NCBI RefSeq assembly: GCF_000004075.3
Contig: NC_026657.2
Coordinates: 7,130,001-7,194,000, forward strand
Length of the DNA stretch: 64,000 nt
Direction of reading: 5' to 3'
Origin: Cucumis sativus
Lineage: Eukaryota > Streptophyta > Magnoliopsida > Cucurbitales > Cucurbitaceae
In this document: in pieces, positions 46,215 to 60,324 of the stretch
Numbering within the stretch: the first letter of the stretch is position 1
Layout: each line of letters begins with the position of its first letter
The notes under the pieces: model-generated
Told to the model about the DNA's origin: nothing
Database searches by the model: none
What the model saw: the letters and a program-made list of their open reading frames with translations, nothing else
Position numbers and translations under genes: made by a program

Positions 46215-47225
46215 ATGGCATCCTTTAAATTCTCCATTCATCTTCTAACTTTCCTCTGTTTCTCACTCATCGCCGGCTCAACCGCCAACCCCCGCCGTAG
46301 TTTCGAGCTCGGAGTTTATTCCATAAAAAACGGCCTTATCGACGCCTGCAACTCTGGCAATTACCAAATCATCAACATAGTATTCACCGTTTCACTTGGC
46401 AACGCCCAAACCCCAGAAATTAATGTAATCGATTACTGTACTTCAACCGGCGTCGATGGCTGCACTAAATTCAGCCAAGAAATCAAGTCTTGTCAAGCCT
46501 TAGGCATCAAAATCATGCTCTCCATCGGCGGGGGGGTCGGTAAATACAATCTGAATAATTTTACCGAGGCCACGAACTTCTCCACATACCTATGGAACAA
46601 TTTCCTCGGCGGCCAATCAAACTCACGTCCGTTAAACGACGTGGTATTCGACGGCGTCGACATTACCAACGAGAGAAGCTCTTGGGACAATTGGAGCAAA
46701 CTCGGCGAAGAGTTGAGGAAATTATACGAAAAACAGCGGAAGAAATTTTACTTATCCGCCGCTCCACAGTGTTCATCTCTGGATTCGAGCTCTCATTCGA
46801 TCCCACAGCCTGGGATTTTCGATTACATTTCAGTTCAATTCTTCGGTAACAACCTCGTTTGCCAGTACCTCAATGGCCGACTTGAGGGGTTTTGGAAATT
46901 TTGGAATTCGTGGAAGATGTTTAATGCAGACAAGGTGTTTGTGAAATTGCTAGCGGGTCCAATGGCGGAAGATATGGGATACATTCGGCCTGATGTGTTC
47001 AGAACTGAAGTATTGCCGGAGCTTCAACAGAGTTCGAAATTTGGCGGCGTGATTTTGTGGTCGGAGGATCTTGATAGAGGATATAGTTCAGAGATCAACC
47101 CAAAAGCATGTGGATCAGTTGAGGCAGCGTCGGAATCGGCAAATGAAGTAGCGGAGTTTCCGATGGGTAACAATTACGCTGGTCAACGAGGGTTTAGAAG
47201 CTGTAGAGGATCTTGCGTGCTCTAA
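46215..47225 (+). CDS. Class III chitinase-like protein (GH18), catalytic site degenerate
   Basis: A single exon encodes 336 residues. Residues 1-24 form a signal peptide (LLTFLCFSLIAGSTA), followed by a GH18 barrel of the hevamine type: CNSGNYQIINIVF, IKIMLSIGGG, YLSAAPQC and GGVILWS are all recognisable. The catalytic stretch reads DGVDITNE (146-153) instead of DGVDFDIE, so the central Asp (hevamine Asp125) is Thr151 while the Glu acid is kept (Glu153). The catalytic Tyr (hevamine Tyr183) is Phe210. The first strand reads LGVYSIKNG, lacking the usual YWGQNG. A 45-residue tail beyond the barrel is unusual. Full chitinase activity is unlikely; a chitin-binding, inhibitor or storage role is possible, as in GH18 lectins and XIP-type inhibitors. 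Secreted or vacuolar by family. Confidence 0.88.
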   Translation: MASFKFSIHLLTFLCFSLIAGSTANPRRSFELGVYSIKNGLIDACNSGNYQIINIVFTVSLGNAQTPEINVIDYCTSTGVDGCTKFSQEIKSCQALGIKIMLSIGGGVGKYNLNNFTEATNFSTYLWNNFLGGQSNSRPLNDVVFDGVDITNERSSWDNWSKLGEELRKLYEKQRKKFYLSAAPQCSSLDSSSHSIPQPGIFDYISVQFFGNNLVCQYLNGRLEGFWKFWNSWKMFNADKVFVKLLAGPMAEDMGYIRPDVFRTEVLPELQQSSKFGGVILWSEDLDRGYSSEINPKACGSVEAASESANEVAEFPMGNNYAGQRGFRSCRGSCVL

Positions 47226-47370
47226 AAGCATTACATGCTTTTGTACCCAACAATACGTTCGATATTCTTTAAAAATAATTTATAATTTGGACATGAAAAA
47301 TCAAAAGTTATACTTTTATTAAAAAAAAATATATTAGAAATGACAAATATATACAAACAAAATATTTTAC

Positions 47371-47393
47371 ATATATATATATATATATATTAT
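47371..47393. repeat. (AT)n microsatellite
   Basis: About eleven uninterrupted AT units downstream of the first chitinase-like gene. Confidence 0.85.
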
Positions 47394-48993
47394 TGTCCAT
47401 TATATTATAAAAGTGTATTAATGGATGAGTTTATTTCTTAAATGTTTCGTGGTCTAATGACTTGTGGTCAAATGAGCTCAATTGGTCATTAAAAAAATCA
47501 TTTACATGCTTCCAAAAATTTAGTTTGATGAATTCATGTGACATGCAAGTTAGTAACTAGATAGGTGTATGTTTACTATAATAATTAAACAAGTGTTTGT
47601 GGCATAATTAACAAAGGTTGTGCTGATTTGACTTTGTACAATTGCATACTTAAAAGTTAGAATTCACTAGTTTACCACATACTTATGGTACTAACAATTA
47701 CTTAAATATATGTAGAGGGGTATCTAGTGTGCAACATATTTTTGATATATATGAACACTTTTGTCCAAATTAAATATTTTACATTTGTTAATTGTTACTG
47801 TTTGTTCATCATAAATGGTTAACTTTATTTGTTCCTCTAAATTTGTACAAGGTGGTAATTAAGTTTGAACTTTAATTTTATCTTATATTTTTAAATAAGA
47901 AAGAGTTTAATATCCAAATTTTACAATCATAAAAAGAGAATTATCAATTAATGTAACTGTATGGGATATATACGATATATTTTAGACTTTTTGTTCAAAT
48001 ATGATGATATCAACCTTACACACATCACTAATATTCAATATGGAGCTCCATTTCAGATACATATCTTTCCCCCTCCACCATCTAAAATCTTGAAATGATC
48101 TTCCTTCACGCGTTGAATTAACTAGTACGTTTCTAGTACCAACGAGGTTTGATCTATTCATTATTCTCATATAGGTCTTGCATTTATTGACTATACATCG
48201 AATTAATGATACATTTTTAATCCATATAAGCTTCAAATGATGATTCAAAATAAAGTCATGAAAAAATAAAGTTAAACGTATATTAAAAGCTTCTACAACC
48301 ACAAACAAAACTACAAATTTATCTTACGTTCTCACAAATTATGTGTAGTTTTTCAATCATATTATACAATATCTAATTACCTCATACAAACCTAGAGTGG
48401 TGTCATCCACGACACTTATGTCCTTATGTGTTGATCCATCTACTCAATTTAATTATTATATTTTTTAGGAAAATAAATACTTTACCACAAAATAAATTTA
48501 TAATTATAACTAAGTCCTACATTTTATATTTTTTATCTGCTAATTTTTTTCCTTTCTCTAGTAATTAAATATGATATTTAGTTTTCTAAACAGATAAATT
48601 AATATTATTATTACAAAGAAAAGATATAAGGTTAGTAACAAACTTGATTTCGAGTATAAAATATCAATTTCACATTTAGTTAATATTTAATTAAAATAGA
48701 GTAGCATCATTTTTAAATTTAGTAAAATATAAATTAAAAAATGTATAAATATAATAAAATTTATTTACTATGGATAAAATATTTATATTGTTAGAAGTTG
48801 ACAAAAATTTATATCTATGCTTAAACAAAATTTCAAGTTACTTCTAGATTTTATATAGAAAGTCGTGTGGGCAAATTTAACATTTAATGTCATTTCATTT
48901 TCCATTGAATTTTCAACTTCACTTTTCTTGTTTGAAAGTGTTGTTATTCTTTTTATTATTATTATTATTTAACCACACAATATGTCAATATGC

Positions 48994-58891: not shown

Positions 58892-58899
58892 TATAAAAG
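58892..58899 (+). promoter_or_regulatory. TATA-like box of the canonical chitinase gene
   Basis: TATAAAAG about 93 bases upstream of the ATG at 58985. The ATG at 58853 lies upstream of this box, so the longer frame that starts there is probably not the protein start. Confidence 0.5.
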
Positions 58900-58984
58900 C
58901 ACACTCCATTTTATTGCTCTCACTACAAAACCAACTAAAACAAAGCTCACTCCACCGCCACCCTTAATCTTCCACCGGAAAAAA

Positions 58985-60324
58985 ATGGAGTTCCGCCGCC
59001 GAGCTCTCCTCTTCTTCATGGTCATTTTAACACTAATGGCGAAATCCAATGGTGGGAAGATAGCAATTTATTGGGGTCAAAATGGAAATGAGGACACTTT
59101 GGCAGGCACTTGTGCCTCCGGAAACTTCCAAATTGTAATCCTAGCTTTTCTAGCCGTCTTCGGCAACGGCCAAACGCCGCAGCTCAACCTCGCCGGACAC
59201 TGCGACCCCTTTAGCAATGGATGCATTCGCTTGAGCTCTGAGATAAAGTCATGCCAAGCTAAAGGCATCAAGGTTACTAAGTTTGATTATTATGATTATT
59301 ACTATTATTATTAAATCGCGTATCTATCAATCATTACAAAAGTTACGACGTTTGATTATTATTATTACCATTATTAATTTAATCCGTGTATCTATCAATC
59401 ATTGTAACACACACAATTTAAATTATGTTGAGATGGGTAGACTATATATTAAGATTATATGTTGTTAGATAGATGAGATGGTTAGATTATATTATTGATA
59501 TCTTCATCTTCAACTGCACCAACCATAGTTTAACATGTGTTCATTAAAAAGAAATTTCTTTACTACTTCTATGAGTATATATAAAGGTAACTTTTTTGCA
59601 TAAATAAGTTGTTAGTTTGACCATATAAGTCAAGAGTTCTGTCTCTTTAAAGTACTAAAGCTTGTGTCTATTTCTACGATTTCTTATGTTGAATTTAATT
59701 ATGAGTCGTATGAATTCATAGGTGATACTTTCTATTGGAGGGGGTGCAGGAAGCTACTTTCTTTCATCAGATGATGATGCTAGAAAAGTGGCACTCTACC
59801 TTTGGAATAACTATTTAGGTGGACATTCAGCATCTCGTCCGCTTGGCAATGCTGTGCTCGACGGTGTTGATTTTGACATTGAAGGTGGGACAAATCAACA
59901 CTGGGATGTCCTAGCCAGGTCTCTGTTGAAGTTTGGAGCTCAAAATGGCAGGAAAGTGTTCATTACAGCAGCACCACAGTGCCCTTTCCCAGACGCTTGG
60001 ATCGGGAACGCATTGACGACAGGCCTTTTCGACTTTGTTTGGGTTCAATTTTACAACAATGCACCCTGCCAATTTTCAGGAGATGGTAGCAATCTTTTTG
60101 ACGCTTGGAAGCAATGGACTTCCACAATTCCTCATGCTCAAATCTTCTTAGGCCTCCCTGCTGCTCCTGCTGCTGCCGGTAGTGGGTTCATTCCCGCTAG
60201 TGTTTTGAAATCGAAAGTACTCCCCATCATCAAACATTCAGCAAAGTATGGTGGCGTTATGCTGTGGTCAAAGTTTTATGACGAGCAAACTGGCTACAGC
60301 TCTTCCATTAAACACAATGTTTGA
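58985..60324 (+). CDS. Acidic class III endochitinase (GH18), catalytic residues intact
   Basis: Two exons, 58985-59272 and 59722-60324, give 296 residues, the usual class III length. A signal peptide (about 1-23, [17 protein letters not shown]) leads into [18 protein letters not shown] at the start of the barrel. The catalytic motif is complete: DGVDFDIE at 143-150 with Asp146, Asp148 and Glu150, and the catalytic Tyr207 in WVQFYNN. It should hydrolyse chitin, and perhaps peptidoglycan like hevamine, in apoplast or vacuole during defence. The intron falls after Lys96, before VILSIGGG, with a weak donor (GTTACT), and carries a tandem repeat. I chose the ATG at 58985 because the signal peptide begins there. 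A poly(A) signal is at 60372-60377. It closely resembles cucumber acidic chitinase in my memory. Confidence 0.94.
59281..59406. repeat. Two-copy tandem repeat in the chitinase intron, 68-69 base period
   Basis: Each copy starts with GTTTGATTATTAT, passes through a (ATT)n stretch and ends with GTATCTATCAATCATT (59320 and 59388). The copies differ by several bases, mostly in the ATT part. Confidence 0.7.

Follow-up and report, generated by a model that had tools for sequence, protein, structure and literature searches.

Probable non-hydrolytic class III chitinase-like proteins beside an active-type chitinase gene in a 14-kb cluster of the cucumber genome

The 64,000-nucleotide stretch of the Cucumis sativus genome analysed here (the window) contains a 14-kb cluster of three GH18 class III chitinase-type genes, CsChi12, CsChi13 and CsChi14, beginning at positions 46215, 49204 and 58985, respectively. 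Our preferred reading, to which we assign a probability of roughly 0.6, is that CsChi12 and CsChi13 encode secreted, non-hydrolytic class III chitinase-like proteins, each having lost catalysis along its own lineage, and that they lie beside an active-type CsChi14. As judged from sequence and model, the TIM-barrel fold is preserved in both, together with the cysteines of its disulfides; by analogy with hevamine, chitin turnover would be absent or very low without the transition-state-stabilising Asp and the assisting Tyr hydroxyl.

Gene models and catalytic residues

The presence of three chitinase-type genes at these positions, as originally predicted, was confirmed from gene models, database identities and published lengths. 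Spliced CsChi13 and CsChi14 were 100% identical over their full length to database proteins P0001 and P0229, both named acidic endochitinase [Cucumis sativus], and all three protein lengths agreed with those of CsChi12, CsChi13 and CsChi14 in Table 1 of PMC6861899, the only paper found under the gene IDs, which also predicts secretion of all three. The Pfam Glyco_hydro_18 profile scored 47.2, 66.0 and 80.5 bits for CsChi12, CsChi13 and CsChi14, respectively, each above the curated cut-off of 29.6. A tblastn search of the window with the three genes found no further chitinase remnants, returning the genes themselves and otherwise only matches of E 1.6 or worse. The features are as follows.

46215..47225, + strand: CsChi12, class III chitinase-like, intronless, 336 aa (from the sequence and the length match to Table 1 of PMC6861899)
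46659..46673, + strand: altered CsChi12 motif D-I-T-N-E, with Thr151 replacing the catalytic Asp and Glu153 kept (sequence, alignment)
46842..46844, + strand: CsChi12 Phe210, replacing the catalytic Tyr (sequence, alignment)
47100..47222, + strand: CsChi12 C-terminal tail of about 40 residues with three cysteines, predicted disordered (present in 12 of 12 clade rows)
49204..50364, + strand: CsChi13, two exons, join(49204-49679, 49914-50364), 308 aa (sequence, database identity)
49678..49679 and 49914, + strand: CsChi13 Arg159 codon, with bases 1-2 (AG) before the intron and base 3 (G) after it (splice model)
49680..49913, + strand: CsChi13 GT-AG intron, inside the Arg159 codon at the lost Asp (splice model)
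49918..49920, + strand: CsChi13 Glu161, the acid kept (sequence)
50092..50094, + strand: CsChi13 Phe219, replacing the catalytic Tyr (sequence, alignment)
58985..60324, + strand: CsChi14, two exons, join(58985-59272, 59722-60324), 296 aa, catalytic set intact (sequence, database identity)
59875..59883, + strand: CsChi14 Asp148-Ile-Glu150 (sequence)
60052..60054, + strand: CsChi14 Tyr207 (sequence)

Alignment to hevamine bore out the residue assignments of the original prediction: the equivalents of Asp125, Glu127 and Tyr183 are Thr, Glu and Phe in CsChi12, Arg, Glu and Phe in CsChi13, and Asp, Glu and Tyr in CsChi14. CsChi14 thus has the DxDxE motif with Asp and Glu and the catalytic Tyr of an active class III chitinase, a set that CsChi12 and CsChi13 lack; in these two an incomplete catalytic set sits in a barrel that has its six disulfide cysteines, as in class III chitinase-like proteins (CLPs). 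The six barrel cysteines are kept and the frames unbroken in both altered genes, as had been claimed, and neither showed the broken frame or splice sites expected of a pseudogene. The changed cleft residues in the two proteins exceed the two catalytic positions first named. With Glu kept in both cucumber proteins, residual activity is conceivable.

Restoration of the Asp by alternative splicing of CsChi13, set beforehand as a result that would weaken the claim, was not seen in the range tried: donors (GT or GC) within 49600-49759 were combined with AG acceptors as far as 50009, and none of the 27 frame-keeping forms had Asp at the motif.

The kept Glu, aided by water or another acid, could in principle support slow hydrolysis or transglycosylation, making both proteins weak but real chitinases, and most residues of the -1 and -2 subsites are kept in CsChi12, with parts of -4/-3 lost. 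We consider this improbable, given that Glu is replaced by Asp in two of five CsChi12 orthologs (Benincasa and Cucurbita) and that XIP-I is inactive despite a kept Glu, which two arginines engage (PMC3045311); the new Arg159 of CsChi13, two residues from Glu161, may engage that Glu in the same way. The claim that the acid is retained therefore stands for cucumber CsChi12 and CsChi13 but not as a residue held by selection. Across the same five orthologs the Asp position is Thr in all, and the Tyr position is Phe in three.

Separate origins, constraint and cleft changes

In a tree built with the catalytic columns omitted, CsChi12 was placed in a cucurbit clade of tail-bearing proteins (12 rows, 92/81; 100/100 with one more partial row), CsChi13 among PPL-2-type rows and CsChi14 in a third clade. 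A single clade of CsChi12 and CsChi13 was rejected (p-AU 1.03e-5), which rules out a common altered ancestor. On these sequences the two genes are not sisters and their residue losses are convergent, so that of the two origins first proposed, convergence or descent from an altered ancestor, only the former holds between them. Within the CsChi12 clade the Asp is already missing in 11 of 12 rows, and the Thr of CsChi12 may therefore derive from an Asp-less ancestor of that clade.

CsChi12 is probably maintained by selection across cucurbits, as far as protein comparisons can tell. Full-length proteins with the conserved tail were found in melon, Benincasa, Cucurbita moschata and one further source, and domain identity between cucumber and Cucurbita was similar for CsChi12 (221/264) and active-type CsChi14 (229/269; Fisher p 0.72), a comparison resting on a single genus-matched pair. 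Thirty-one columns were changed in all five CsChi12 orthologs, 21 of them to the same new residue. Since CsChi12 is no more diverged than CsChi14 and these 21 residues are fixed in five of five orthologs, its maintenance is the probable explanation. With a transition bias of 2, neutral amino-acid change would be expected to produce 12.1 nonsense changes on the five-row tree, yet none of the five proteins is truncated, although intact proteins are over-represented in databases and the test therefore overstates the constraint. The original prediction of selection on the altered genes thus gains protein-level support for CsChi12.

The position of the changes differed between the two genes. Cleft tests used columns conserved in 42 intact rows, which were picked for Asp, Glu and Tyr and so favour tests that include the catalytic columns. 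CsChi12 showed no concentration in the cleft, with changes at 4/12 cleft columns versus 40/107 elsewhere (p 0.72), or 2/9 versus 40/107 without the three catalytic columns (p 0.90), and a new role cannot therefore be located there. CsChi13 was changed at 7/12 cleft columns versus 14/107 elsewhere (p 0.0009; one of the seven, Ala224, is an uncertain alignment gap), and at 5/9 versus 14/107 without the catalytic columns (p 0.006). For CsChi7 the cleft concentration was lost without those columns (2/9 versus 19/107, p 0.51).

These patterns bear on whether CsChi12 and CsChi13 are instead redundant tandem copies decaying under relaxed selection and still open by chance. No end branch in the tree is longer than that of CsChi13 (0.68), and among the best 120 of 549 matches, with proteins above 539 aa (e.g. 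a fused model) left out, its only matches above 61% identity were itself and partial P0016; moreover, of eight full-length cucumber genes in the comparison, four (CsChi12, CsChi13, CsChi7 and CsChi21) lack the Asp, so the family loses it often. However, CsChi12 is full length with its tail in several genera and no more diverged than CsChi14 in the one matched pair; CsChi13 is unchanged at 93 of the 107 conserved columns outside the cleft yet changed at most of those inside it, a pattern that uniform decay would not yield; and the watermelon model ClChi11 appears to have the size and exon number of CsChi12 and CsChi13 combined. We therefore regard decay as unlikely, if the foremost of the alternatives; for CsChi13, with its long branch and single partial close relative, relaxed decay is conceivable.

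The CsChi12 tail and the CsChi13 intron

The least ordinary features of the locus are the CsChi12 tail and the CsChi13 intron inside the lost Asp codon. The tail carries an invariant pattern in its cucurbit clade (..CGS..PM..GF..C.G.C..), had no Pfam domain match, and was found in the cucumber genome in CsChi12 and CsChi7; no report of the clade was found among literature titles and abstract starts. By analogy, the tail probably has a propeptide-like sorting function. A more far-reaching proposal, which we hold to be unlikely, is that CsChi12 is a cucurbit-specific secreted non-enzyme, an Asp-less barrel with a tail conserved like the barrel that is maybe released or acts as a signal or sorting peptide, and that, independently, intron gain in the CsChi13 Asp codon may itself have ended catalysis.

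Known relatives and biological meaning

Non-hydrolytic class III relatives are already known (XIP, XAIP, concanavalin B and TCLL), and CsChi12 and CsChi13 are new members of this known kind of protein, inactive relatives being known from other plants. They differ from the plant class III GH18 proteins hevamine and PPL-2 in having lost the catalytic Asp and Tyr and in their altered cleft. Because Tyr183 of hevamine assists Asp125 (PMC3662789), a Tyr to Phe change after Asp loss would need no special selection. A crystal structure of hevamine D125A/Y183F with tetra-NAG exists (title of 1kr0), so a barrel without the pair can still hold sugar; our literature search found no paper on D125A or Y183F kinetics. 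The tamarind chitinase-like lectin TCLL shares the class III barrel, the Asp loss and the Tyr to Phe change (PMC3662789), but its Glu is gone as well (Val) and its loops are altered. In dicots, concanavalin B and coffee CaclXIP are likewise inactivated class III barrels, with Gln where CsChi12 and CsChi13 keep Glu (PMC3045311).

Inhibition of fungal GH10 or GH11 xylanases in the manner of cereal XIP would be another role for the two proteins. OsXIP shows losses of the same kind (Asp to Phe, Glu to Asp, Tyr to Phe; PMC12329526), the latter two shared with Benincasa CsChi12, and the class III relative CaclXIP inhibits fungal xylanases (PMC3045311). According to PMC12329526, however, inhibition of both GH10 and GH11 needs a long alpha4-beta5 loop, of more than 4 residues with a basic one among them and 8-11 residues long in OsXIP/XIP-I, and a helix-alpha7 Lys (Lys234 of XIP-I). 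In CsChi12 and CsChi13 the alignment shows one extra column relative to hevamine near that loop, as in active-type CsChi14, and not a loop of 8-11 residues, and the residue at hevamine position 233 is Asp and Ser, respectively; we consider this role very unlikely. The suggestion that loss of the same pair points to one particular new role is weakened, since OsXIP and TCLL lost that pair in other plants.

CsChi13 recalls XAIP/haementhin, the Scadoxus multiflorus inhibitor of xylanase and alpha-amylase, in which the Asp is replaced and the Glu kept. It has Pro at hevamine Gly81 (39 Gly, 2 Ala and 1 His in the 42 intact rows), as does XAIP-II, whose Pro77 is said to block the channel (PMC2998507), and a larger residue at Gly11 (Ile; Phe in XAIP-II by our mapping). 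This XAIP-type pair, seen at residue level, is found only in CsChi13, CsChi12 having kept Gly81. In contrast, XAIP-II keeps the Tyr, and CsChi13 is 41-44% identical to the XAIP chains. CsChi13 may be an XAIP-like barrel with a blocked channel, its outer loops serving to bind another protein such as a microbial hydrolase. CsChi12 is found in unbroken form in several Cucurbitaceae, and its function is probably not chitin cleavage; with its -1/-2 subsites largely kept and parts of -4/-3 lost, it would probably bind either a protein or a short ligand of the GlcNAc type.

Plant class III chitinases have thus lost their catalytic set repeatedly, even inside one 14-kb cluster, and at least one altered form, CsChi12, is retained in several cucurbit genera, its conserved tail offering a concrete, testable handle on what this non-enzyme does. 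CsChi13 is labelled a chitinase in databases and all three genes are listed as chitinases in PMC6861899; in studies of cucumber defence, CsChi12 and CsChi13 should not be counted as enzymes without an assay.

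Identity and catalytic residues of the three genes

The window corresponds to G000:C3:7130001-7194000 of the 226.6 Mb cucumber genome. In protein searches the spliced products of g2 and g3 were identical to P0001 and P0229, respectively, both acidic endochitinases of Cucumis sativus, and the lengths of the g1, g2 and g3 products (336, 308 and 296 aa) are those of CsChi12, CsChi13 and CsChi14 (PMC6861899 Table 1, where secretion is predicted for all three), i.e. Csa3G120470, Csa3G120480 and Csa3G120500 (PMC6861899). The same survey reported mismatched active-site residues in 10 of 28 cucumber chitinases, termed putative chitinase-like proteins, and the broad fact is already published there; its Results passages name neither g1 nor g2 among the ten. 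It also gives CsChi12-CsChi18 and CsChi13-CsChi19 as segmental duplicate pairs, and the large-effect variants between two cucumber lines that its text names, as examples only (CsChi19 and CsChi25), include none for g1 or g2.

Alignment to hevamine placed Thr/Glu/Phe (g1), Arg/Glu/Phe (g2) and Asp/Glu/Tyr (g3) at Asp125/Glu127/Tyr183, confirming the original prediction that the catalytic Asp and Tyr are replaced in g1 and g2 and that g3 is intact. Asp/Glu/Tyr was found in 310 of 340 aligned sequences (335 proteins among the matches listed, including g1, g2 and g3, plus five other cucumber genes), which as the best matches to g1-g3 are no fair sample of plants; among the 30 that differ, three (P0004, P0010 and P0016) reflect gaps, partial sequence or misalignment. 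The Asp is gone from half (4/8) of the full-length cucumber genes compared, namely g1, g2, CsChi7 and CsChi21.

Other loci in the cucumber genome and open frames in the window
G000:C2:10654570-10655562, minus strand: CsChi7 (L014), g1-type C-terminal tail; catalytic set Val, Gly, Phe, all three lost
G000:C5:413323-414162, minus strand: CsChi21 (L012, assigned by 323 aa), Asp to Val and Glu to Gly
G000:C1:15608703-15609551, minus strand: L003, GH18 match with one in-frame TAA stop, flanked by two open GH18 matches
Window 9502-10353, plus strand: open frame of 283 aa, AP2 domain
Window 29458-31353, plus strand: open frame of 631 aa, DUF1221 and protein kinase domain
Window 32995-34815, minus strand: open frame of 606 aa, pentatricopeptide repeats

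A chitinase fragment with a stop adjoins CsChi7 (C2:10659216-10659473). Contig C5 carries four tandem class III genes, with Asp, Glu and Tyr kept in the three besides CsChi21, which has an unrelated 31-residue extension.

The g2 codon for Arg, at the position of the lost Asp, is cut by the g2 intron (AG/G; window 49678-49914), and P0016, a g2 relative, runs into intron at the same codon. No intron lies here in g1, CsChi7 or the four chromosome-5 genes, whose frames are open, and the g3 intron is at another site.

Separate histories of g1 and g2

A thorough maximum-likelihood tree, built on 61 selected rows without the catalytic columns, placed g1 within a 12-row cucurbit-type group (support 92/81; 100/100 with one extra partial row), g2 with the PPL-2-type rows, and g3 in a third, separate clade. 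Constraining g2 and the five g1 orthologs (cucumber g1, melon P0122, Benincasa P0123, Cucurbita moschata P0124, P0125) to one clade changed the log-likelihood by -62.8 units, and this single clade was rejected (p-AU 1.03e-5); the shared altered ancestor that had been offered as an alternative to convergence is thus not sustained. The exact neighbours of g2 are unsure because its branch is long (0.68). We conclude that g1 and g2, both class III chitinase-like proteins, were altered independently.

Among the g1 orthologs Thr stands at the Asp position in 5/5, Phe at the Tyr position in 3/5 and Asp at the Glu position in 2/5; on the 61-row tree Asp loss preceded Tyr loss, and retention of the Glu acid, as had been proposed, holds for cucumber g1 and g2 but not across the orthologs. 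P0130, the sole row of the 12 with both Asp and Glu, has Tyr changed to Phe, and among the others Val or Ala also occurs in place of Asp; Glu is lost too in Siraitia P0129, P0131, Benincasa P0132, melon P0133 and cucumber CsChi7. Branching at the base of the 12-row group does not decide between one early Asp loss and several, both of which fit.

All 12 rows extend about 40 residues beyond the barrel to a C-x-G-x-C-like end motif, which occurs in 11 of 335 proteins among the matches listed, every one from the g1 group. Three cysteines and seven other tail columns are invariant across the 12 rows, and the commonest residue of a column is held by a mean of 0.74 of rows over the 40 tail columns and 0.73 over the 267 barrel columns. 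The tail has an AlphaFold2 pLDDT of about 27-33 and no Pfam match; a search of the cucumber genome located it in g1 and CsChi7. The hevamine precursor extends 12 residues beyond the mature end, and such precursor ends serve vacuolar sorting; our best guess for the g1 tail is a sorting propeptide.

Substrate cleft and constraint

Among 42 intact rows 119 columns are conserved, and at these the departures of g2 are concentrated in the cleft (7/12 vs 14/107 elsewhere, p 0.0009; one counted change, Ala224, is an uncertain alignment gap). Leaving out the three catalytic columns gives 5/9 vs 14/107 (p 0.006), the fairer figure because the 42 rows were chosen for all three catalytic residues. The changes that matter most are Pro at hevamine Gly81 and Arg at Gln181, which is Gln in 42/42 intact rows; a Pro at the equivalent of Gly81 in XAIP-II is said to block the channel (PMC2998507), its match to the g2 position following the listing order in that paper. 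Changes in g1 are spread across the barrel (cleft 4/12 vs 40/107, p 0.72), with the -1 and -2 subsites largely kept and parts of -4 and -3 lost, there being alignment gaps in 3/5 rows. The cleft concentration gave p 0.06 for CsChi7 and 0.05 for CsChi21 at a 90% threshold, and at 95% p 0.04 and 0.03, respectively; that of CsChi7 was gone once the catalytic columns were left out.

Cucumber-Cucurbita domain identity was 221/264 for g1 vs 229/269 for the active g3 (p 0.72), the sole pair matchable by genus, with different Cucurbita species (moschata and argyrosperma). In the 61-row tree a long g1 stem (0.58) leads to short tips (0.06-0.14), a shape that fits a burst of change giving way to renewed constraint; 31 of the 119 conserved columns are changed in all five orthologs, 21 of them to an identical new residue. 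Neutral amino-acid change on the five-row tree would be expected to bring 12.1 nonsense changes; each of the five proteins is full length, although intact proteins are over-represented in databases. The one close g2 relative, P0016, is a 224-aa partial sequence 92% identical over its aligned part. The proposal that catalytic loss accompanied a new role is partly supported: judged from sequence, g1 has most likely been kept for a role other than hydrolysis, and g2 would be either repurposed, XAIP-like, or loosening.

Possible counterparts and known inactive relatives

Homologue searches covered proteins up to 588 aa (g1) and 539 aa (g2), longer ones being skipped. For comparison with the g1-g3 cluster (window 46215-60324), watermelon ClChi11 is described as 643 aa with three exons and repeated class III motifs, expressed in leaf and up under drought and salt, with ClChi12 (299 aa, two exons) 11 kb after it (PMC10779513). 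The summed lengths (336 + 308 = 644 aa) and exon counts (1 + 2 = 3) of g1 and g2 agree with these; from sizes and order, ClChi11 is plausibly an annotation fusion of watermelon g1 and g2, and ClChi12 plausibly its g3. If so, g2 occurs beyond Cucumis.

The kind of change seen in g1 and g2 is already known, since such losses are described in OsXIP (Asp125 to Phe, Glu127 to Asp, Tyr183 to Phe; PMC12329526), TCLL (Ala, Val, Phe; PMC3662789), XAIP-II (His, Glu, Tyr; PMC2998507), XIP-I (Glu present but engaged by arginines) and CaclXIP (Gln for Glu; both PMC3045311). Inhibition of both xylanase families is reported to need a long alpha4-beta5 loop with a basic residue and a helix alpha7 Lys (PMC12329526); in the alignment no loop of XIP length is seen in g1 or g2, and the Lys position holds Asp in g1 and Ser in g2. 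The residue, clade, cleft and tail specifics of g1 and g2 were not met in print in the literature searched. Inactive class III relatives being well known, the value to specialists lies in the cucurbit tail clade and in the intron within a catalytic codon.
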